Positions 24,962-36,904 of a stretch of 64,000 bases of DNA are shown piece after piece. The position numbers and the translations under genes were made by a program. Position 1 is the stretch's first letter, and every line of letters begins with the position of its first letter. Where the stretch lies: the NCBI RefSeq assembly GCF_945957355.1, contig NZ_CAMFKM010000003.1, forward strand, positions 372,001-436,000. Reading direction: 5' to 3'. Source of the DNA: an uncultured Reyranella sp. GTDB lineage: Bacteria; Pseudomonadota; Alphaproteobacteria; Reyranellales; Reyranellaceae. The notes beneath the pieces are model-generated. The model ran no database searches. It saw only the letters and a program-made list of their open reading frames with translations, and had not been told where the DNA came from.

Positions 24962-26035
24962 ATGAGCACCGACAAGGCCCTCCACTGGCGCGATCTTCCG
25001 GCGCCGGTCCTGTCCCTGCTGCGGCAGGGTACCGTCATCCCCGCGCATCCGCTGGCGCTCGACACCGACCGAATCTTCGACAAGCAGTCGCAGCGCGCGC
25101 TCAGCCGCTACTACCTCGACGCCGGTTCCGGCGGGCTGGCCGTAGGGGTGCATTCCACCCAGTTCGCCATTCGCGAAGTCGGGCTCTATCGTCCCGTGCT
25201 CGAGCTTGCCATCGGGACGGCGCGCGACTGGACCGACCGGCCGCTGGTCATGATCGCGGGCGCGGTCGGCAGGACGGCGCAGGCGGTCGAGGAAGCGCGC
25301 ACGGCGCGGTCGCTCGGCTATCATGCAGTGTTGCTGTCGCTGGCGGCGCTGAAGGGCGCGAGCGAGGACGAGCTGATCGAGCATTGCGCGGCGGTCGCGA
25401 AGGAGATGCCGCTAATCGGCTTCTATCTGCAGACCGCCGTGGGAGGCATCAAGCTGTCGCGCGAATTCTGGACGCGCTTCGCGGCGATCGACAATGTCGT
25501 GGCCATCAAGGTGGCGCCGTTCAACCGCTATCGCACGCTCGACGTCTGCTTCGGTATCGCCGCCGCCCATGCCGAGGATCGCATCACGCTCTATACCGGC
25601 AACGACGACCATATCGTGGCCGACCTTGTGACGCCGATGGTCGTTCGCACCGGCAACCGCGAGGTGACGCTGCGGTTCCAGGGCGGACTCCTCGGTCACT
25701 GGAGCGTCTGGACACGCGGCGCGGTGAAGATGCTCGAAAGGCTGAAGCTCTCGGTCTCGAACGGTGCCATCGCGCCCGAGGTGCTGGCGCTCGATTCCTT
25801 CGTTACGGATTGCAACAGCGTGGTTTTCGACGTCGACCACGATTTCGCGGGCTGCATTCCGGGGTGCCACGAGATCCTGCGGCGGCAGGGGCTTCTGCAA
25901 TCGATCGAATGCCTGGACCCTCACGAAAAGCTGAGCCCCGGCCAGAGCGAGGGAATCGACCGGCTCTACGCGACCTACCCCGAGCTGCACGACGATGCCT
26001 TCGTGGCGGCGAACCTCGAGCGCTGGCGGAACTGA
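24962..26035 (+). CDS. Dihydrodipicolinate synthase/N-acetylneuraminate lyase family protein
   Basis: A 357-residue class I aldolase-type TIM barrel. The Schiff-base lysine is Lys183 in NVVAIKVAPF, and the conserved tyrosine is Tyr155 in LIGFYLQTA, where true DHDPS has YNxP. The N-terminal substrate-carboxylate motif is modified to GGLAVGVHSTQF. Longer than DapA (about 290), with a C-terminal addition. It is more likely a 2-keto-acid aldolase or dehydratase of the catabolic cluster than a lysine-biosynthetic enzyme. Starts 10 bases after the GNAT gene. Confidence 0.85.
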   Translation: MSTDKALHWRDLPAPVLSLLRQGTVIPAHPLALDTDRIFDKQSQRALSRYYLDAGSGGLAVGVHSTQFAIREVGLYRPVLELAIGTARDWTDRPLVMIAGAVGRTAQAVEEARTARSLGYHAVLLSLAALKGASEDELIEHCAAVAKEMPLIGFYLQTAVGGIKLSREFWTRFAAIDNVVAIKVAPFNRYRTLDVCFGIAAAHAEDRITLYTGNDDHIVADLVTPMVVRTGNREVTLRFQGGLLGHWSVWTRGAVKMLERLKLSVSNGAIAPEVLALDSFVTDCNSVVFDVDHDFAGCIPGCHEILRRQGLLQSIECLDPHEKLSPGQSEGIDRLYATYPELHDDAFVAANLERWRN

Positions 26036-26039
26036 GCCG

Positions 26040-27458
26040 TTGGACGATCTGTTCGCTTCCCATGACGCACTGGCCGTCGCGGAGCTGGTCCGCAGCCGGC
26101 AGATCGGCGCTCGGGAACTGCTCGACGTCACTCTCGCGCGGCTGCGCAAAGCCAACGGCCATCTGAACGCGATCACGGATTTCTACGAGGGCAACCTGCT
26201 CGAACGGTCCGTCTCGGCGGCGGGCGAGGGGCCGTTCCGCGGCATTCCCTTCGTCGTGAAGCAGCTGATGGCCGATTGCGCCGGTACGCCGACCACGGTC
26301 GGCTCGCGCTTCTTTGCCAGGGAACCGGTGGCGGCAAATGACAGTGCTGCGGTAGCCCGCATGCGCCGCGCCGGCCTGGTGATTGTCGGCCGCAGCAACA
26401 CCAGCGAGTTCGGCCTGGCGCCGACGACCGAGCCCGCCTTTGGCGGCGCGACGGTCAATCCGTGGCGTGCTGACCTGTCGCCGGGCGGCTCGTCCGGCGG
26501 TTCGGCTGCGGTGGTGGCGGCCCGGCTGCTGCCGATGGCGCATGCGACCGACGGCGGCGGCTCGATCCGCATTCCGGCCTCCCTGTGCGGGCTGTTCGGC
26601 CTGAAGCCCTCGCGCGGCCGCATCAGCCTCGCGCCGATCGGAGAGACCCTCGCCGGGGCTGGGGCACAGCTCAGCGTCTCGATCTCCGTGCGCGACAGCG
26701 CGGCACTGCTCGACGTACTGGCGGGCGGCGAACCCGGAGATCCCTATCGCGCGCCCGAGGCCGAAGGGTCGTTCCTCGACGCGACCAAGCGTACCCCGGG
26801 CAAGCTTCGCGTCGCCTTCGTCCGCAAGCCCGTCGGCTGGGAGTCGATGGACCCGGCGCTGGTCGCGGCCGTCGAGCGTACGGCGAAGCGGCTGGAAGCG
26901 CTCGGTCATCACGTCGAGGAGGCGACGCCGGATTATGATCCCGTGGCGACCGGCATGGCCTTCGGCACGGTGATGTGCGCCAACACCTTCACCAACATCC
27001 AGGTCCGCGCCAACGGCCGCGTGCCCGGGCCCGGCGATCTGGAACCGGTGACGCGGCTCTACGCGGAGCAGGGCGGCAAGGTGAGCGCCCACGACTATAT
27101 CCGCGCCGTCCAGACTTTCCATCGCACGGGACGGCAGCTCGGCGCCTTCTTCGAGAGGTTCGACATCCTCCTCTCGCCGACCATCGCGCGGCCGTCGTTG
27201 CCGCTGGGCACCGTGCGCATGGATGGCAGCCTTGAGCAGTACGAGGGGGGGCTCGCGCCGATGGTGGCCTTCACCTCTGTCTGCAATGCCGCAGGCGTGC
27301 CGGCCATGTCGGTGCCGCTGGAATGGACGGACGACGGTCTGCCCATCGGCATGCACTTCGTCGCCCGCTACGGCGCAGAGGCCACGCTGTTGTCACTGGC
27401 TGCGCAGCTCGAACAGGCGCATCCGTGGCGCGATCGGCGGCCTCCCGGAGTGAACTGA
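26040..27458 (+). CDS. Amidase (amidase-signature family)
   Basis: A 472-residue amidase-signature hydrolase. The catalytic Lys74 is in GIPFVVKQLMAD, the cis-Ser is within PGGSSGGSAA (about residue 152), and the nucleophile Ser175 is in DGGGSIRIPAS. The TTG at 26040 is taken as start because it lies 4 bases after the previous stop. The only upstream ATG (25995) is inside the aldolase gene, so the start is moderately uncertain. It would release ammonia or an amine from a carboxamide. Its place in this operon suggests an amide-containing substrate. Confidence 0.88.
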   Translation: MDDLFASHDALAVAELVRSRQIGARELLDVTLARLRKANGHLNAITDFYEGNLLERSVSAAGEGPFRGIPFVVKQLMADCAGTPTTVGSRFFAREPVAANDSAAVARMRRAGLVIVGRSNTSEFGLAPTTEPAFGGATVNPWRADLSPGGSSGGSAAVVAARLLPMAHATDGGGSIRIPASLCGLFGLKPSRGRISLAPIGETLAGAGAQLSVSISVRDSAALLDVLAGGEPGDPYRAPEAEGSFLDATKRTPGKLRVAFVRKPVGWESMDPALVAAVERTAKRLEALGHHVEEATPDYDPVATGMAFGTVMCANTFTNIQVRANGRVPGPGDLEPVTRLYAEQGGKVSAHDYIRAVQTFHRTGRQLGAFFERFDILLSPTIARPSLPLGTVRMDGSLEQYEGGLAPMVAFTSVCNAAGVPAMSVPLEWTDDGLPIGMHFVARYGAEATLLSLAAQLEQAHPWRDRRPPGVN

Positions 27459-27915: not shown

Positions 27916-28887
27916 TCAGAGCCTGCGCATAACGATCTGCGAGCCGCCGCCCCAGATCGGGAGATAGGCCATCTTGTAGCCGGCGCCGCCGGTCACGATC
28001 GGATGGATCGCCTCGGAAGAGGAGGCGACGTCCTTGCCCTCATCGAACAGATACTGCTGGACCCGCTTGATGTCCCAGCCCTCGTGGCGGGCGATTTTCT
28101 CGGCGAGTTCGAGCGGCAGCAGAAGCACCTGTTCGCCTCGCGCGCTCTTGCGGCTCTGGCCCGACATCACGATCTCGGCACGCATGCCGGCGACGACCGG
28201 GTCGAGGATCGCTTGCGGTGTCGCGCCCTCGCCGTCGCCGGGCAGCACCTCGGCCGTGCCAGAAATGCCCATCACCGTGAGGGCGCTCTCGTTCTTCGCA
28301 AGCCCGTGGCGTTCCGTGAATGTCGGGAAGGGACCTTCACTCCTCTCGGCGAAGCACAGGGTGAACTTGGCAGGCTGGCCCATTGTCGCCATGTCGCCCG
28401 TGTCAGAGCGCGCACCGCCGATGTTGCGCAGGCAGAGCTGGAGGGCGCGGCCGATGCAGGCATTGGTGCGGTTGCCGGGACCGATGGTGTTCGTCAGGGC
28501 GTTGACGCCGAGCTGCTGCACGATCGGGCCGTGGAGGCAGAGCGCGACCGCGGCGCTGCCGGTGGTCGTGGCGATGCCGAGGAGATTGAAGTCGGGTTCG
28601 AGCACCGCCTGCGCCGCCGCCAGAACCACCGGCACCTCGGCCGGTACGCAGCCCGCGATCACGCATTGATAGGCTACGCTCTCGGGGGTGATGTCGCCGA
28701 ACATCGGCGGCATCATGCCTTGCGACTCCGAGCGGCCGCCGATGCCGGCGACCATCGCTTCCAGGCGCCGCCGGGTCGGCGGCACCAGGGGGAGGCCATC
28801 CGAGAGTTCGGCCTCCGTCAGGATCTGTTGTGCGCTCTCCCAAGCCGTCTGCTCGTCGACGACCGGCCAGCCGCACCACTCGTTCAT
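27916..28887 (-). CDS. Uncharacterised protein B of the selenoprotein operon (cysteine-poor paralog)
   Basis: A 323-residue soluble protein of unknown function, last in the minus-strand operon and overlapping the previous gene by ATGA. It is a clear paralog of the 345-residue protein before it. Both share GLPL(V)PPT near residue 35, an AGC..E.PVV segment, and NACIGRAL.L.L.N.GGA...GDM...G.PAKFTLCF (residues 142-179). Of the paralog's cysteines at 81, 113, 131, 135 and 179, only the equivalents Cys80 and Cys178 remain. The other positions are Ser111, Ala130 and Thr134 here. It may therefore be a non-catalytic partner in a heteromer. No signal peptide. Confidence 0.8.
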   Translation of the reverse strand: MNEWCGWPVVDEQTAWESAQQILTEAELSDGLPLVPPTRRRLEAMVAGIGGRSESQGMMPPMFGDITPESVAYQCVIAGCVPAEVPVVLAAAQAVLEPDFNLLGIATTTGSAAVALCLHGPIVQQLGVNALTNTIGPGNRTNACIGRALQLCLRNIGGARSDTGDMATMGQPAKFTLCFAERSEGPFPTFTERHGLAKNESALTVMGISGTAEVLPGDGEGATPQAILDPVVAGMRAEIVMSGQSRKSARGEQVLLLPLELAEKIARHEGWDIKRVQQYLFDEGKDVASSSEAIHPIVTGGAGYKMAYLPIWGGGSQIVMRRL

Positions 28888-29921
28888 CGGGCGATGCGCG
28901 TGCAGGCGACGGTGGTGCCGCCGAATGACGGTATGAAGGCCGAATGCTTGCCTGGACCGCCCGCCACAGTGATGTGGATGTCGTTCGGATCACGGCCGAT
29001 CGCCAGCCAGTCCCCGTCGGGCTTGTGGCCGGTGCTCTCGTAGGTGGCGAGGTTCTCGCGGGAGATGCGCGACAGGTGGATGCGCGAGCGCTTCCAGAGT
29101 TCCTCCCGGATGCTCTCGATCGTGAAGCCATCACGCTTCAGGGTCGCCGCATGTTCGGGGCCGATGATGAGGAACATCGGGCCCTTGCCGTACACGGTGT
29201 TGGCACCCGGATTGGACATGCCGCCGGCGAAGGTGGTGAGCAGGCCGTCGCCCGTGGTCGAACCGTGATCGTTGAGATTATGCGGACCTTCGCCCGACAT
29301 CACCGTAACGACCGAGTCGGTGGGCGCGAAGCCGCGCTGCACGTGATAGGGCGTCCAGGGATTCTCCTCCTCGTTCTCGCCGAAGCAGAAGGTGAACTTG
29401 GCGGGATTGCCCTGGGTCGAGCGGTCCATCTCACCGGGCTTGGCGCCGGCTACGTTCAGCAACATCAGGCCGAGCGCGCGGCCGATCGTGGCATTGGCCT
29501 GGCGGCCCTGGCCGAAGCAGTTGGTGCCGCAGTTGATGTTGAGTTCGTGGCGGATCGGGCCGCTCACCATGACCATCGGGGCGCAGGAGTGAGTGGTCGC
29601 AAGCGTGCCGTGCAGATTGTAGTCCGGATCGAGCACGCCGCGCAGGGCGGCGGTCACGACGGGGAAGTATTCGGGCTTGCACCCGGCCATGACGGCGTTC
29701 GCGGCAAGCGCCTGCAGCGTCGGCACGATCTGGCGCGGCGGGACGGGCGGGTAGGGGCGATTGTCGCCCCGGACCGTCTCGACGAACTTCGCCACTTTGG
29801 CCTCGGTGGGCACGAAGAGCGGCATGCCGTCGCTCCAGCCCTGTTCGTTGGCGTACTCGTTGAAGGCCTCGACATCCATGTCGCCGATGTCGATCACTTC
29901 CTGGTCGGCGATGTCCTTCAT
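28884..29921 (-). CDS. Uncharacterised protein A of the selenoprotein operon (cysteine-rich paralog)
   Basis: A 345-residue soluble protein of unknown function. Its ATG overlaps the stop of the selenoprotein gene (ATGA), and its own stop overlaps the next start. Conserved features are GWSDGMPLFVPT (residues 28-39), AGCKPEYFPVV (Cys81), TTHSCAP (Cys113), a C-GTN-C pair (Cys131, Cys135) and NPAKFTFCFGE (Cys179). Five cysteines in blocks shared with its paralog suggest redox or metal chemistry. The translational coupling predicts 1:1 production with, and probably physical association to, the UGSC selenoprotein. Not recognisable as any named enzyme. Confidence 0.82.
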   Translation of the reverse strand: MKDIADQEVIDIGDMDVEAFNEYANEQGWSDGMPLFVPTEAKVAKFVETVRGDNRPYPPVPPRQIVPTLQALAANAVMAGCKPEYFPVVTAALRGVLDPDYNLHGTLATTHSCAPMVMVSGPIRHELNINCGTNCFGQGRQANATIGRALGLMLLNVAGAKPGEMDRSTQGNPAKFTFCFGENEEENPWTPYHVQRGFAPTDSVVTVMSGEGPHNLNDHGSTTGDGLLTTFAGGMSNPGANTVYGKGPMFLIIGPEHAATLKRDGFTIESIREELWKRSRIHLSRISRENLATYESTGHKPDGDWLAIGRDPNDIHITVAGGPGKHSAFIPSFGGTTVACTRIAR

Positions 29922-30436
29922 TTGCCCGTGGCCTCGGTCAATCCCTTGGTCGCTGCTTCGATACGTTCCCGCAGTTCTTCGGCATTGAGGCCGCCGACGG
30001 GATGCTTGACCACGATCAGGCGCGGTTCGACCTTGCGGGCCTTCGCCTGGGCGAGGACCAGCGGCTTGAATGTCTCAGTGGCGATCACGTAGGCGGTGAT
30101 GCCGAGCTTCTCGAGTTCGAGGCTGTCGTGGAAACTCCACGATGAACAGCTTCCTCAATCCCCTAAGGCGAGGAGTGCCGCCTTGTAGTTCTTGGCGACC
30201 TTCTCGATCAGTTCCTTCGGCGCCGGCTGGCTGGCGCTGTTCTTGGCGTGGAAATGGATGTTGTCGACCGGACGATGGGCGCCCAGCATGGCGCGTACGC
30301 CTTCCAGCAACTCACGAGCGTTCGGCTTGGAATTGGAGATCAGCGCAATGGCGTCCGTCGCCCAGTTGACCGGCTGCAACGTCACCTTGGCGGGGCCGGC
30401 GGCGGCCATTCCGAAGCTTGGATTGAAGATACGCAT
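29918..30436 (-). CDS. UGSC-motif selenoprotein (in-frame TGA read as selenocysteine)
   Basis: The frame starts at ATG 30436 with a GGAGG site upstream and would conventionally stop at the TGA at 30155-30157. Beyond it the same frame stays open for 78 codons and ends with TGA at 29918-29920, coupled to the next ATG. Full product: 172 residues with Sec94. The TGA falls exactly in the motif GD-U-GSC, so Sec94 and Cys97 form a U-x-x-C redox pair. The N-terminal part (ALISNSKPNARELLEGV; SASQPAPKELI) and C-terminal part (SSWSFHDSLELEKLGITAYVIATETF) together match the UGSC family of bacterial (seleno)proteins as I know it. A stable hairpin immediately follows the TGA. It is preceded by a thioredoxin-reductase-like gene, the likely reductant. 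Conventional gene callers would truncate it to 93 residues. Confidence 0.88.
30119..30157 (-). promoter_or_regulatory. Bacterial SECIS-like hairpin following the Sec TGA
   Basis: On the minus strand, counting from the base after TGA, positions 13-19 (TCGTGGA) pair perfectly with 23-29 (TCCACGA) around the loop GTT at 20-22. Below a 5'-side bulge (TTCA, 9-12), GCTG (5-8) pairs with CAGC (30-33). GAG spanning the TGA can pair with CTC (34-36). The apical loop begins with G about 20 bases after the TGA, and a bulged U lies in the stem, as described for bacterial SECIS elements bound by SelB. The hairpin is within the coding sequence, as expected in bacteria. Confidence 0.75.
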
Positions 30437-30453: not shown

Positions 30454-31323
30454 CTACTTGTTCAACGCCGCGATAACCGACTTGGCGGCGCGTTGGCCGT
30501 CCGCGATGGCGTTGGCCAGATATTCCTTCGAACCGGACCTTACGTCGCCGGCGGCAAACACCAGCGGCTGGGCAGTCTGGCCCGCTTCGTCAACAACGAT
30601 ATGCCCCGTGGCGTCGCGTGCAAGCGAATCCGGCAGGAATTCCGCAGCGGGAGACCGCCCCTCATAAACGAACACCGCATTGGTCGGAATTCGGTTTCGC
30701 TGGCCGCTATCTTCGACCGTGACGGCCTCGAGACCGTTGCTGCCTTCGAGACCGACGATGCGTCCCGGCATGGCCGTGACGCCTTCGGGGAGCGGGCCAT
30801 TCGGCGTGCCGAGCATGGTGATGTCGCTGGCGATGCCGACCAGGACGGCGGCCTCGTAGGGCGCCCAGCCGGTCGCGCCGGCGATGATCACGGGCTGGCC
30901 GGCATAGAGCGGCCCGTCGCAGTTCGCGCAGTGGGAAAGGCCACGTCCTTCATATTCCTCCTCGCCGGGGAGACCGAGCTTGCCCTTGCTCATGCCGGTC
31001 GCAACGACGAGGGATCGCGCCGTGTGGTGCTCGCCGTCGGCGGTCTCGATCTCGAAGGGCCCGTTGCCGGAAATCGCCGTCACTTCGCCGAAGCCGATCT
31101 CGACGCCGGCGACGACGGCGTCGTCGGTCAGGCGCGCGGCCATAGTCGTGCCGTCGAAGATCTCCTCGAAATCGTGCAACTGGCCCAGGTTGATGATTTC
31201 GCCGCCGGGCGCGAGCTTGTCGAGGCAGAGCGCCTTCAGGCCCGCGCGGGCGGCTTCGGTGGCGGCGGTCAGTCCGGCAGGACCGGCGCCAATGACGATC
31301 ACGTCGTAGGAAGGGGTGTCCAT
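30454..31323 (-). CDS. Thioredoxin-reductase-like FAD oxidoreductase
   Basis: A 289-residue flavoprotein of the low-molecular-weight thioredoxin reductase family. The FAD motif is IVIGAGPAGLTAATEAAR (residues 9-26), the redox disulfide CANC is Cys132/Cys135 (HCANCDGPLYAG), and the second FAD motif is VFAAGDVRSGS. The central pyridine-nucleotide site is unusual. Where the family has GGGDSA, this protein has IIAGATGWAPYEAA, and the HRRxxxRA arginines are not present (MLGTPNG). It may use NADH, ferredoxin or another donor. It is first in the operon, 17 bases before the UGSC selenoprotein, and divergent from livH. Confidence 0.86.
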   Translation of the reverse strand: MDTPSYDVIVIGAGPAGLTAATEAARAGLKALCLDKLAPGGEIINLGQLHDFEEIFDGTTMAARLTDDAVVAGVEIGFGEVTAISGNGPFEIETADGEHHTARSLVVATGMSKGKLGLPGEEEYEGRGLSHCANCDGPLYAGQPVIIAGATGWAPYEAAVLVGIASDITMLGTPNGPLPEGVTAMPGRIVGLEGSNGLEAVTVEDSGQRNRIPTNAVFVYEGRSPAAEFLPDSLARDATGHIVVDEAGQTAQPLVFAAGDVRSGSKEYLANAIADGQRAAKSVIAALNK

Positions 31324-31510: not shown

Positions 31511-32425
<915 letters not shown>

Positions 32426-32428
32426 CGG

Positions 32429-33850
32429 ATGGGCCCGCGTCTCCCTCTCATGCTGAAGGATGCGGGCCTTACCGCCTTCGTCGCCGCGGCCCTCGGCATC
32501 TTCATCGTGGGCTTCCGCACCGTCGACCTGGGGGGCGGCAAGGGGCTGGGCTTCGACTATCACCTCGTCGATCTCGCGGTGGCCGTGGTCGTCATCTTCA
32601 TCGGCCGGCTCGGCCTCTCGATGGCGGCCAATGGTCTGCGCTGGCCGGCCATTGCGCTGGGTGTGGCGATGGTCGCGGCCGGCGCCTCGCCCATGAAGCT
32701 GCCGTCCGGCTTCCTGCACTGGTTCGTGGCGCTGGGCGGCGTACTGCTGGTGATCCGCGCGATCTGGCCATGGGCCAATGACGCCATGGGCGCTGCGGCG
32801 CGGACCCCGTCGGGTGTGGCGCTGGGCAAGGCCGGGTCCAAATGGTTTGGCTGGCTGTTGCTGGCCGCAGCGGTGCTGATGCCGTTCACGCCGTTCGCCG
32901 ACCAGAAGACGATGGATCTCGGCGTCCTGATCCTGACCTACGTGATGCTTGGCTGGGGGCTCAACATCGTGGTCGGCCTCGCCGGCCTGCTCGACCTGGG
33001 CTACGTCGCATTCTACGCGGTCGGCGCCTACGCCTATGCGCTGCTCAGCACGCAGTATGGACTGGGCTTCTGGACTGTCTTGCCGCTCGCCGGGATGATG
33101 GCGGCGCTGTTCGGCATCATGCTGGGTTTCCCGGTCCTGCGCCTGCGCGGCGACTACCTCGCCATCGTGACCCTCGGCTTCGGCGAGATCATCCGTCTCG
33201 TGCTGCTGAACTGGTTCGACCTCACCAACGGGCCGGCCGGCATCGGCTCGATCCCGGGACCGACCCTGTTCGGCGCCGTGTTCGCCGAGACGCCGCCGCC
33301 CGGCAAGCAGACTGTCTCGGAGATGCTGGGAATCGCCTTCGACGGCAATCACCGGCTGATCTTCCTCTATTACATCATCCTCGGCCTGGCCCTGATCACC
33401 AACCTCTTCACCCAGCGCATGCGGCGCCTGCCGGTCGGTCGCGCCTGGGAGGCGTTGCGCGAGGACGAGACCGCTTGCCAGGCGCTCGGCATCAATCCGA
33501 CCAACACCAAGCTCACGGCCTTCGCCATCGGCGCCATGTTCGCGGGCTTTGCCGGTTCCTTCTTTGCCGCCAAGCAGCGCTTCATCAGCCCCGAGAGCTT
33601 CGTGTTCATCGAGTCGGCGATCATCCTGGCCATCGTCGTCCTGGGCGGCATGGGCAGCCAGATCGGCGTGGTGCTGGCGGCCGTGCTGTTGATCGGCCTG
33701 CCAGAATGGTTCCGGGACCTCGGCAATTACCGCATGCTGGCCTTCGGCCTCGCCATGGTCCTGATCATGGTGTTCAAGCCGCGCGGGCTCATTTCCCATC
33801 GCGAGCCGTCGATACGGTTGCATCCCGCCGGCTCGGGAGGCGGGGGATGA
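32429..33850 (+). CDS. livM: Branched-chain amino acid ABC transporter permease LivM, with N-terminal extension
   Basis: A 473-residue permease. The LivM core (from about residue 165) has [54 protein letters not shown] and a C-terminal [28 protein letters not shown]. The first about 150 residues form four additional hydrophobic segments, making it longer than minimal LivM proteins (about 320-360) but similar to the LivM forms with a DUF3382-like N-terminal region. It starts 4 bases after livH and its stop overlaps the livG start (ATGA). Confidence 0.94.
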
Positions 33851-34648
33851 CCTCATCGCTGATCGAGATCGAGCACCTCACCATGCGCTTCGGCGGGCTG
33901 GTCGCGATAGACGACGTCTCGTTCTCGGCGCGATCGCAGGAGATTACCGCAGTCATCGGTCCCAACGGCGCCGGCAAGACGACGGTCTTCAACTGCATCA
34001 CCGGCTTCTACAAGCCGACGATCGGCCGGCTGACCCTGCGTGGCGCTGGCGGCGAATTCCTGCTCGAACGGATGCGCGGCCACGAGATCGGTCAGAAGGC
34101 CCGGGTGGCTCGTACCTTCCAGAATATCCGTCTGTTTCCCGGCATGACCGTGCTGGAGAACCTGATGGTGGCGCAGCACAACAAGCTGATGCGCGCCTCG
34201 GGCTGGAGCCTGCTGGGTCTTGTTGGCGTGGCGAGCTTCCGGCGGGCCGAGGCGGCCGCGGTCGACCTGGCGCGGCTCTGGCTGGAGCGCATCGGTCTGG
34301 TGGCGGATGCCGACCGTCCGGCCGGCGAGCTGCCCTATGGCGCCCAGCGGCGCCTCGAGATCGCCCGGGCCATGTGCACCGAGCCGGTGCTGCTCTGCCT
34401 GGACGAGCCGGCGGCCGGTCTCAACCCGCGCGAATCGGCCGAACTCAACCAGCTGCTGGTTTCGATCAGAGACCGGGACGGGATCGGCGTGCTGCTGATC
34501 GAGCACGACATGAGCGTCGTGATGAACATTTCCGACCACATCGTCGTCCTCGACTATGGCCGCAAGATCGCCGAGGGGGATCCGCTGGCGGTGCGCGGCA
34601 ACCCGGCGGTGATTCGCGCCTATCTCGGCACCGACGAGGAGGCGATCG

Positions 34649-34656
<8 letters not shown>
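33847..34656 (+). CDS. livG: Branched-chain amino acid ABC transporter ATP-binding protein LivG
   Basis: A 269-residue ATPase. Walker A is GPNGAGKTT, the Q-loop lies in [25 protein letters not shown], the signature region is [15 protein letters not shown], Walker B is [13 protein letters not shown], and the H-loop is [15 protein letters not shown]. The PYGxQRR signature and NP after the D-loop are typical of LivG. ATG at 33847 overlaps the livM stop. Its own stop lies 8 bases inside livF. Confidence 0.95.
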
Positions 34657-35373
<717 letters not shown>

Positions 35374-35377
<4 letters not shown>

Positions 35378-35736
35378 GCCCGCTCGACACCTTCATGTTC
35401 GACTGGTTCGGCGACACGCTGTTCAACGTGGTGCTGTTCAACATCGTGCTGATCGGGCCGGCGTCGTTCGCCGCCGGGCACGCCGTGGCTCTCACCTGGC
35501 GACCCTGGCCGCAGATCGTATTCTACACGGCGCTCCTGTCGGCGACCCTGCGCTTCCTCGACTATGCGCTGGCCAATGGCGAGTTATGGTCGTTGGCGGG
35601 ATTTGTACTGGGCTGGGCCGTGCAACTGGCGATCGCGGCCTTCGCCTTCAGGCTCACGCGCGCGCGCCAGATGGTGCGCCAATATCCATGGCTTTACCGG
35701 CGCAAAGGCTTGCTGGGCTGGGACGAGCGGCCCTAA
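35374..35736 (+). CDS. Small membrane protein next to the Liv transporter (DUF6867-like)
   Basis: A 120-residue protein with three hydrophobic segments (about residues 18-36, 50-62 and 70-90) and a basic C-terminus (RQMVRQYPWLYRRKGLLGWDERP). Coupled to livF by ATGA and located before the binding-protein gene. The length, context and C-terminal YRRKGLLGW segment correspond to the DUF6867 proteins that accompany Liv operons in alphaproteobacteria, as far as I recall. It may be an accessory membrane component of the importer. Function unproven. Confidence 0.75.
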
Positions 35737-35749
35737 TGTAACAGCCATG

Positions 35750-35765
35750 CTCCGCCAGTGCGGAG
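35750..35765 (+). other. Intergenic hairpin between the membrane protein and binding-protein genes
   Basis: CTCCGC-CAGT-GCGGAG is a perfect 6-bp stem with a 4-base loop, 27 bases before the binding-protein ATG. There is no T-run after it, so it is not a terminator. Hairpins here could stabilise the downstream mRNA and raise binding-protein output over the membrane components. Confidence 0.35.
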
Positions 35766-35791
35766 GAGGCTCAACGACAAGGGAGACCCGG

Positions 35792-36904
35792 ATGAAGAAG
35801 ATGTACGGCACACTGGCCGTCGCAGCCGTCGCACTGATGGCGACGCCCGCGTTCGCCCAGATCAAGATCGGCTCGGCCGGTCCGATGACCGGTTCCAACG
35901 CGGCGTTCGGCGAGCAGCTCCGTCGCGGCGCCGAGATGGCGGTCGCGGACATCAATGCCGCCGGCGGCGTCAACGGCCAGAAGCTCGAACTGGTGATCGG
36001 CGACGATGCCTGCGATCCCAAGCAGGCGACCGCGGTCGCCAACAAGATGGTTTCGGACAAGGTCGTGTTCGTGGCCGGCCACTTCTGTTCGGGTTCGTCG
36101 ATCCCGGCCTCGGACATCTACAAGGAAGGCAAGATCCTGCAGATCACGCCGGCCTCGACCAATCCGAAGCTGACGGACGACGCCGCTTCCAAGGGCAACA
36201 CCACGGTGTTCCGCACCTGCGGCCGTGACGACGTGCAGGGCACGACGGTCGGCAACTACATCCTGAAGAACAACAAGACCGCCAAGGTCGCGATCCTTCA
36301 CGACAAGTCGCCGTACGGCAAAGGCGTGGCCGACGAGACCAAGAAGGCCCTGAACAAGGGTGGTCTGCGCGAGGCCATGTACGAGGCCTACAACGACACC
36401 GACAAGGACTTCGCCGCGCTGATCAACAAGATGAAGCAGGCGAAGATCGACATCATCGTGCTGGGCGGCTACCACACCGCGGGTGCGCTGATCATCAAAC
36501 AGGCGCGCGAGCAGGGCCTGGCCGCGAACATGATGGGCTTCGACGCGCTCGAGACCGCTGAGTTCGCCCAACTGGGCGGCGCGGCGACCAACGGCGTGAT
36601 GATGTCGTTCCCGCCGAAGGCCGAGGACGACCCCAAGAATGCCGCCCTCGTTAAGAAATTCCGTGACGCCAAGTACAACCCGGAAGGCTACACGCTGTTC
36701 AGCTACGCCGCCGTGAAGGCCTGGGCCGATGCCGCCAACAAGGCGAAGTCGGTCGAGGCAGCCAAGGTCGCCGCGGCGCTGCGCTCGGGCAAGTACGACT
36801 CGGCCGTCGGCGTGCTCGAATTCGACGCCAAGGGCGACATCAAGGACGCGGTCTACGACATCTACGTCTGGAAGGACGGCAAGTCGGCTCCGATGAAGAA
36901 GTAG
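35792..36904 (+). CDS. livK: Branched-chain amino acid ABC transporter substrate-binding protein
   Basis: A 370-residue periplasmic protein. Sec signal peptide of about 22 residues (KKMYGTLAVAAVALMATPAFA, then QIKIGSAGP). The periplasmic-binding type 1 fold is seen in GPMTGSNAAFGEQLRRGAEMAVADINAAGGVNG, a disulfide-forming pair in DDACDPKQA and HFCSGSS, ILHDKSPYGKG and VLGGYHTAGALIIKQAREQGL. ATG at 35792 has a GGGAG site. Last gene of the Liv operon, followed by a strong terminator. Confidence 0.95.
   Translation: MKKMYGTLAVAAVALMATPAFAQIKIGSAGPMTGSNAAFGEQLRRGAEMAVADINAAGGVNGQKLELVIGDDACDPKQATAVANKMVSDKVVFVAGHFCSGSSIPASDIYKEGKILQITPASTNPKLTDDAASKGNTTVFRTCGRDDVQGTTVGNYILKNNKTAKVAILHDKSPYGKGVADETKKALNKGGLREAMYEAYNDTDKDFAALINKMKQAKIDIIVLGGYHTAGALIIKQAREQGLAANMMGFDALETAEFAQLGGAATNGVMMSFPPKAEDDPKNAALVKKFRDAKYNPEGYTLFSYAAVKAWADAANKAKSVEAAKVAAALRSGKYDSAVGVLEFDAKGDIKDAVYDIYVWKDGKSAPMKK

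Follow-up and report, generated by a model that had tools for sequence, protein, structure and literature searches.

A UGSC-family selenoprotein gene of Reyranella, its partner family UgsX, and a proposed thiol-driven function

The locus described here lies in a window of 64,000 nucleotides, i.e., the whole stretch of DNA from an uncultured Reyranella sp. that was analyzed, and it raises two questions. Does a TGA codon inside a reading frame on the minus strand encode selenocysteine (Sec) and, if so, what might the protein do? The initial annotation described a frame that opens with ATG at 30436, meets TGA 30155-30157 after 93 codons and then continues for 78 further sense codons, and all of these coordinates proved to be exact. 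The same was true of the coupling that it described downstream, where the stop codon TGA 29918-29920 overlaps the ATG of the next gene as ATGA (29921-29918), and of its GD-U-GSC motif: the codon context of the TGA on the minus strand is GAT-TGA-GGA-AGC-TGT (D-U-G-S-C), creating a U-x-x-C arrangement. When read through, the gene (29918..30436, minus strand) encodes a product of 172 residues, with Sec at position 94 and a resolving Cys at position 97.

Decoding of the in-frame TGA

TGA is a stop codon by default, and on that reading the frame would encode a truncated protein of only 93 residues, or be a pseudogene. The openness of the frame beyond the TGA is by itself weak evidence, because 78 open codons have a chance probability of ~0.16 at the window GC of 66.5%. 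The 3′ half did have the coding character ascribed to it, the G+C content at the three codon positions being 0.60/0.44/0.82 before the TGA versus 0.63/0.45/0.77 after it. What takes the read-through far beyond chance is the combination of homology along the whole product, retention of the TGA in all orthologues examined, and frozen synonymous codons at a hairpin just downstream.

The homology is with the UGSC family, to which the gene had been correctly assigned by name. The profile PF24696 matched the read-through product across the TGA, from residue 3 to 167 (5e-37; 128.1 bits versus a gathering score of 25), so that both flanks do belong to one family. The product also matched NF041046, an equivalog model for the UGSC family, with 118.6 bits (E 2e-34); because this is below the curated cut-off of 125 bits, we file the gene under PF24696 and not under the equivalog. 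It is thus a new member of an already known selenoprotein family. The nearest loci found in a DNA search were in Reyranella MAGs, and every one of the 37 same-genus genomes examined carried from two to five UGSC members, nearly all of which contained a single TGA; there are four members in the window's own genome. When sampling was widened to the class, the family appeared in 28 of 289 genomes, almost always with one TGA. Gene callers that take TGA as a stop would truncate the UGSC gene in every species that has Sec at this position.

The genome (5.79 Mb, 99.9% complete) contains selA, selB, selC and selD, the check proposed in the initial annotation, with selA scoring over its cut-off and a tRNA-Sec with the anticodon TCA adjoining selB. 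Each of the 27 orthologues examined has TGA at this codon in an intact frame, and homologues extend past the TGA instead of ending before it. A sequencing error, which had been raised as another way in which the reading might fail, is excluded: independent genomes share this TGA, as do four paralogues within the window's own genome. A further check suggested at the outset was for Cys at position 94, and this was found in five distant relatives, from Natrialba (a haloarchaeon), a Sphingomonas MAG, a Binatia MAG, an Acetobacteraceae MAG and Mycobacterium gordonae. The best match of a tRNA-Sec model in Natrialba was below the gathering score; tRNA-Sec is present in the Acetobacteraceae MAG and in M. 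gordonae despite their Cys-form UGSC. Across 50 aligned UGSC members the column at position 94 (with Sec shown as C) was invariant, the codon being TGA or TGY. In Blastococcus (L089) the Sec codon is TAG (L089:6729-6731) within the same four-gene cluster, and a tRNA with a CTA anticodon occupies the tRNA-Sec locus; UAG-decoded Sec has been reported in Geodermatophilaceae, with UGSC-motif proteins included (PMC5330540). Two divergent forms were also seen: a UGSS variant, in which Ser replaces the resolving Cys (L163:791-1225), and a fused UGSC-like domain with neither Sec nor Cys (L147, frame +0).

The hairpin, of SECIS type (UCGUGGA-GUU-UCCACGA; 30126..30142, minus strand), was evident from two kinds of alignment. 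Among the 27 orthologues, synonymous differences amounted to only 2 of 191 in codons 98-106, compared with ~33% elsewhere in the gene. In an alignment of 68 diverse Sec members, a stem of eight pairs, at 15-33 nt counted from the first base of the TGA, was 91% paired, versus 17-54% for versions slid along the alignment, and none of 2000 column shuffles was as good. The loop was GTN in 64 of the 68, and the stem covaried, one pair being G-C in 54 members and C-G in 11. That swap came mostly from members that have C in place of W two residues past the conserved Cys, and the change in the RNA pair and the change in the protein therefore go together. Folding of single sequences (mildly unusual, z ~-2) and shuffling of synonymous codons (median p 0.048 for Sec forms) are weaker than these alignment-based tests, and scanning the site against Rfam for known SECIS families gave no relevant match. 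The hairpin following the TGA is under selection at the RNA level.

That TGA 30155-30157 encodes Sec is near certain. The reading as an ordinary stop is already contradicted by the presence of the four sel genes, by the intact frame and retained TGA in the orthologues, by conservation of the hairpin at synonymous sites, and by the Cys and TAG variants at the Sec codon; we consider it extremely improbable.

UgsX, a partner family of UGSC

The UGSC gene belongs to a tight run of genes on the same strand, consisting of a thioredoxin-reductase-like (TrxR-like) flavoprotein gene, UGSC itself, and two copies of an unnamed partner for which we coined the name UgsX; the two junctions downstream of UGSC are ATGA overlaps. 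UgsX copy 1 (28884..29921, minus strand; 345 residues) is coupled in this way to UGSC, and copy 2 (27916..28887, minus strand; 323 residues), which is ~31% identical to copy 1, is coupled to copy 1. UgsX had no match in Pfam, in NCBIfam or among solved structures.

When 84,980 genomes were searched with a profile of UgsX, blind to UGSC, 80 loci were recovered. UGSC was present in 76 of these, always on the same strand (76/76), and lay no more than 300 bp away in 74; in three of the four loci where it was missing a contig end was close to the match. In the other direction, UgsX stood beside UGSC in 59 of 60 UGSC loci, and in some genomes the two are fused (L049, L051). Given this co-occurrence in both directions, together with the fusions, UgsX and UGSC are close to being an obligate pair. 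In the literature searched we found no description of the pairing, apart from the fusion of UGSC with a domain termed "Unknown_1" in the 2008 GOS paper, which may or may not be UgsX. In the window's own genome, two consecutive Lin0512-type genes, the first of them matching PF09585, adjoin another UGSC/UgsX pair (L047:7465-8161). UGSC/UgsX clusters at L112, L131, L137 and L160 are in MAGs titled Bordetella parapertussis; they share their isolate naming with environmental betaproteobacterial MAGs, and the title looks like mislabelling.

The predicted model of UgsX was confident (pLDDT 91.7), with no good match to known structures (best Z 5.0), which is not proof of a new fold. Residues conserved in UgsX include D31, N143, R148, E182, H214 and H257. 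A faint resemblance to the fumarase and cyanuric-acid-hydrolase folds (Foldseek E 4e-3) was not supported as an assignment, with a TM of ~0.2 and the same best Z of 5.0. A relationship to GrdE/PrdA was likewise set aside, since none of 47 UgsX proteins matched any of those models up to E = 1 and no Cys is conserved through the whole UgsX family. Searches of solved-structure sequences with UGSC, UgsX and GrdB-like profiles returned nothing useful.

Putative thiol-reducing neighbors and genomic surroundings

The first gene of the run (30454..31323, minus strand) encodes a flavoprotein with a CANC motif that matched PF07992 (4e-29) and, below the cut-off, TIGR01292 (1e-54). All 20 loci retrieved from the same genus preserve the four-gene order, as do other alphaproteobacteria and Blastococcus. 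Some loci, L048 of the window's own genome among them, form a class in which UgsX has an N-terminal CxxC domain with weak but consistent thioredoxin-fold matches; in others, including that in the window, the TrxR-like gene is adjacent. A C-A-x-C motif was found in 28 of 28 TrxR-like proteins among the matches listed. The protein from the window keeps its CANC and has neither the usual GxGxxA nor the HRRxxxR motif for NADPH, as is the case throughout its subgroup, so its source of electrons may not be NADPH; the relative at L049 retains a glycine-rich motif. Ferredoxin-dependent flavin thioredoxin reductases, for which NADPH is not a usable donor (PMC12796991), would provide a precedent by analogy only, and the TrxR-like protein is an uncertain candidate for the donor.

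These neighbors bear on the possibility that UgsX is the enzyme proper, i.e., a hydrolase, lyase or isomerase, with UGSC serving as a regulatory subunit or one that scavenges peroxides or electrophiles. The many invariant polar residues in UgsX would fit such a role, as would the faint likeness of its model to the fumarase and cyanuric-acid-hydrolase folds, although those resemblances are weak, and the reductant domains fused to UgsX suggest that the complex has to be supplied with reductant. We consider this possibility unlikely.

Divergent from the cluster is a set of genes for a branched-chain-type ABC transporter and a periplasmic binding protein (31511..36904, plus strand), which provides context only and might serve in uptake of a substrate; the binding protein occupies 35792-36904. 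Genes for a DHDPS-family protein and an amidase (24962..27458, plus strand), also context only, converge on the cluster and are found near it at L053 and L085 as well. Of the 80 UgsX loci, 26 had a TctC-type binding protein nearby, 15 a member of CoA-transferase family III and 12 an enoyl-CoA hydratase. The proximity of transporters for carboxylates or amino acids and of catabolic genes is suggestive of a catabolic context, and only suggestive because these are raw counts without a background rate.

Likeness to GrdB/PrdB and a proposed function

The statement in the initial annotation that the reaction of UGSC is unknown agrees with the literature that we searched. The family is abundant in aquatic metagenomes, where it made up 8.2% of the selenoprotein genes in an updated GOS set, and is functionally uncharacterised; a 2026 review still placed it among the selenoproteins whose functions are largely uncharacterised.

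A possible relative came from profile comparisons. The GrdB model TIGR01917 matched 27 of 50 UGSC members (best 1.5e-6), followed by models for GrdF, GrdH, PrdB and "selenoprotein B", and no NCBIfam family other than those of GrdB/PrdB type matched more than two of the 50. The matches fell at positions 335-404 of the 431 in the GrdB profile, the Sec motif included. When UGSC was compared with a profile of 18 GrdB/PrdB-like proteins, two of them from the window's own genome, Sec aligned with Sec (probability 61%, E 8.1e-5), while UgsX, as a control, gave a probability of 0.9% with the same profile. The similarity is statistically modest and covers ~80 residues. The UGSC protein of the window itself had no GrdB/PrdB match at E 0.1; the cut-offs of TIGR01917, TIGR01918 and TIGR04483 were not reached, the best UGSC members scoring 27.4 and 23.8 bits versus 602.2 and 65.45; and PF07355 was reported for none of the 50. 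Judged from sequence similarity, a distant common ancestry of the Sec segment of UGSC and the Sec domain of GrdB/PrdB is likely.

The window's own genome also contains three GrdB/PrdB-like genes with an in-frame TGA, at C14:48935-49840 (L202), C14:137637-138374 (L166, with LVPVUPAC) and C3:87593-88411; because these are additional, they bring the genome's probable selenoproteins to at least seven. In another genome (G107), a GrdB-like gene contains a TAG that was considered as UAG-encoded Sec and rejected: it lies away from the Sec site, and that genome gave no tRNA-Sec scoring over the cut-off.

The 2008 GOS paper expected a thioredoxin-like fold for UGSC. In a thioredoxin fold the redox motif would come after the first strand. 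In our predicted model (pLDDT 93.6) five strands alternate with helices and Sec follows the third strand; the structural matches were common alpha/beta folds, with no thioredoxin among the matches listed. The top match, 8s7v_H (Z 10.4), was tied with FtsZ and others, and was set aside as evidence. The model thus speaks tentatively against the published suggestion, a miss in a structural library being no proof. It likewise counts against the idea that UGSC is a general thioredoxin-like thiol-disulfide oxidoreductase, which would repair or protect UgsX or other proteins and not act on a small substrate. The U-x-x-C motif, the expectation of the GOS authors and the adjacent TrxR-like gene are all consistent with that idea; however, it sits poorly with the almost obligate pairing with a single partner family, with sequence similarity that leads to GrdB/PrdB, and with the separate Trx-like domain already present in some fused loci, and we regard it as rather improbable.

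Computation has shown the insertion of Sec, the hairpin downstream of it, the pairing of the genes and the fusions of domains. The overall best explanation, which we hold to be somewhat probable, is that UGSC and UgsX are the two subunits of a selenoenzyme, driven by dithiols, for the reductive cleavage of a small molecule taken up from outside. In this explanation SelB and tRNA-Sec read TGA 30155-30157 as Sec under the direction of the hairpin (15-33 nt, counted from the first base of that codon), and the predicted fold of UGSC is a small alpha/beta domain in which the selenolate sits where a helix begins, beside the resolving Cys of the U-x-x-C motif. We infer the reaction, substrate class and electron donor as follows. 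UGSC would be the catalytic redox subunit, and the UgsX proteins would form the substrate site. The selenolate might attack an electrophilic substrate held by UgsX and, by analogy, reductively cleave a C-N bond or one of a similar kind, with a selenenyl-sulfide forming between Sec94 and Cys97. A dithiol donor, i.e., thioredoxin, the fused Trx-like domain or the adjacent TrxR-like flavoprotein, would then re-reduce the selenenyl-sulfide, and the imported substrate would pass into catabolism.

The near-obligate partner gene, the TrxR-like gene in the run and the resemblance to GrdB/PrdB are new with respect to the initial annotation. With a partner gene, a source of reductant and a probable relative whose enzymology is known, there is a first testable idea of the function of the UGSC family, and an old open question becomes a concrete experiment. 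More tentatively, and as something we find plausible but rather short of probable, these proteins may represent an undescribed class of thiol-driven selenoenzyme, in which a stand-alone Sec domain of GrdB/PrdB type works with UgsX, of a fold unrecognised among solved structures, in the reductive breakdown of small molecules brought into the cell, with no pyruvoyl group involved. The class would extend over Proteobacteria, Chloroflexota, Rokubacteria and Actinobacteria, with a Cys form in haloarchaea.

Compared with known systems, the gene in the window resembles the PF24696/NF041046 family in the match along the whole product, the UGSC motif and the SECIS hairpin, and its subgroup differs in having the TrxR-like gene and two UgsX copies. 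The UAG selenoproteins of Geodermatophilaceae (PMC5330540) have their counterpart in the Blastococcus cluster, with its TAG and CTA-anticodon tRNA, whereas the organism in the window uses ordinary UGA. With respect to GrdB, GrdH, GrdF and PrdB (TIGR01917, TIGR01918, TIGR04483), UGSC is short (~150-170 residues), scores far under all of the cut-offs, and is spread through many lineages other than clostridia; in addition, no partner of the pyruvoyl GrdE/PrdA type was detected among the 47 UgsX proteins up to E = 1. What UGSC and these proteins would have in common is a segment with the order strand, UxxC, helix, "GIPT", strand, in which Sec falls on Sec, and the GrdB/PrdB systems are thiol-coupled, as is the system that we propose for UGSC.
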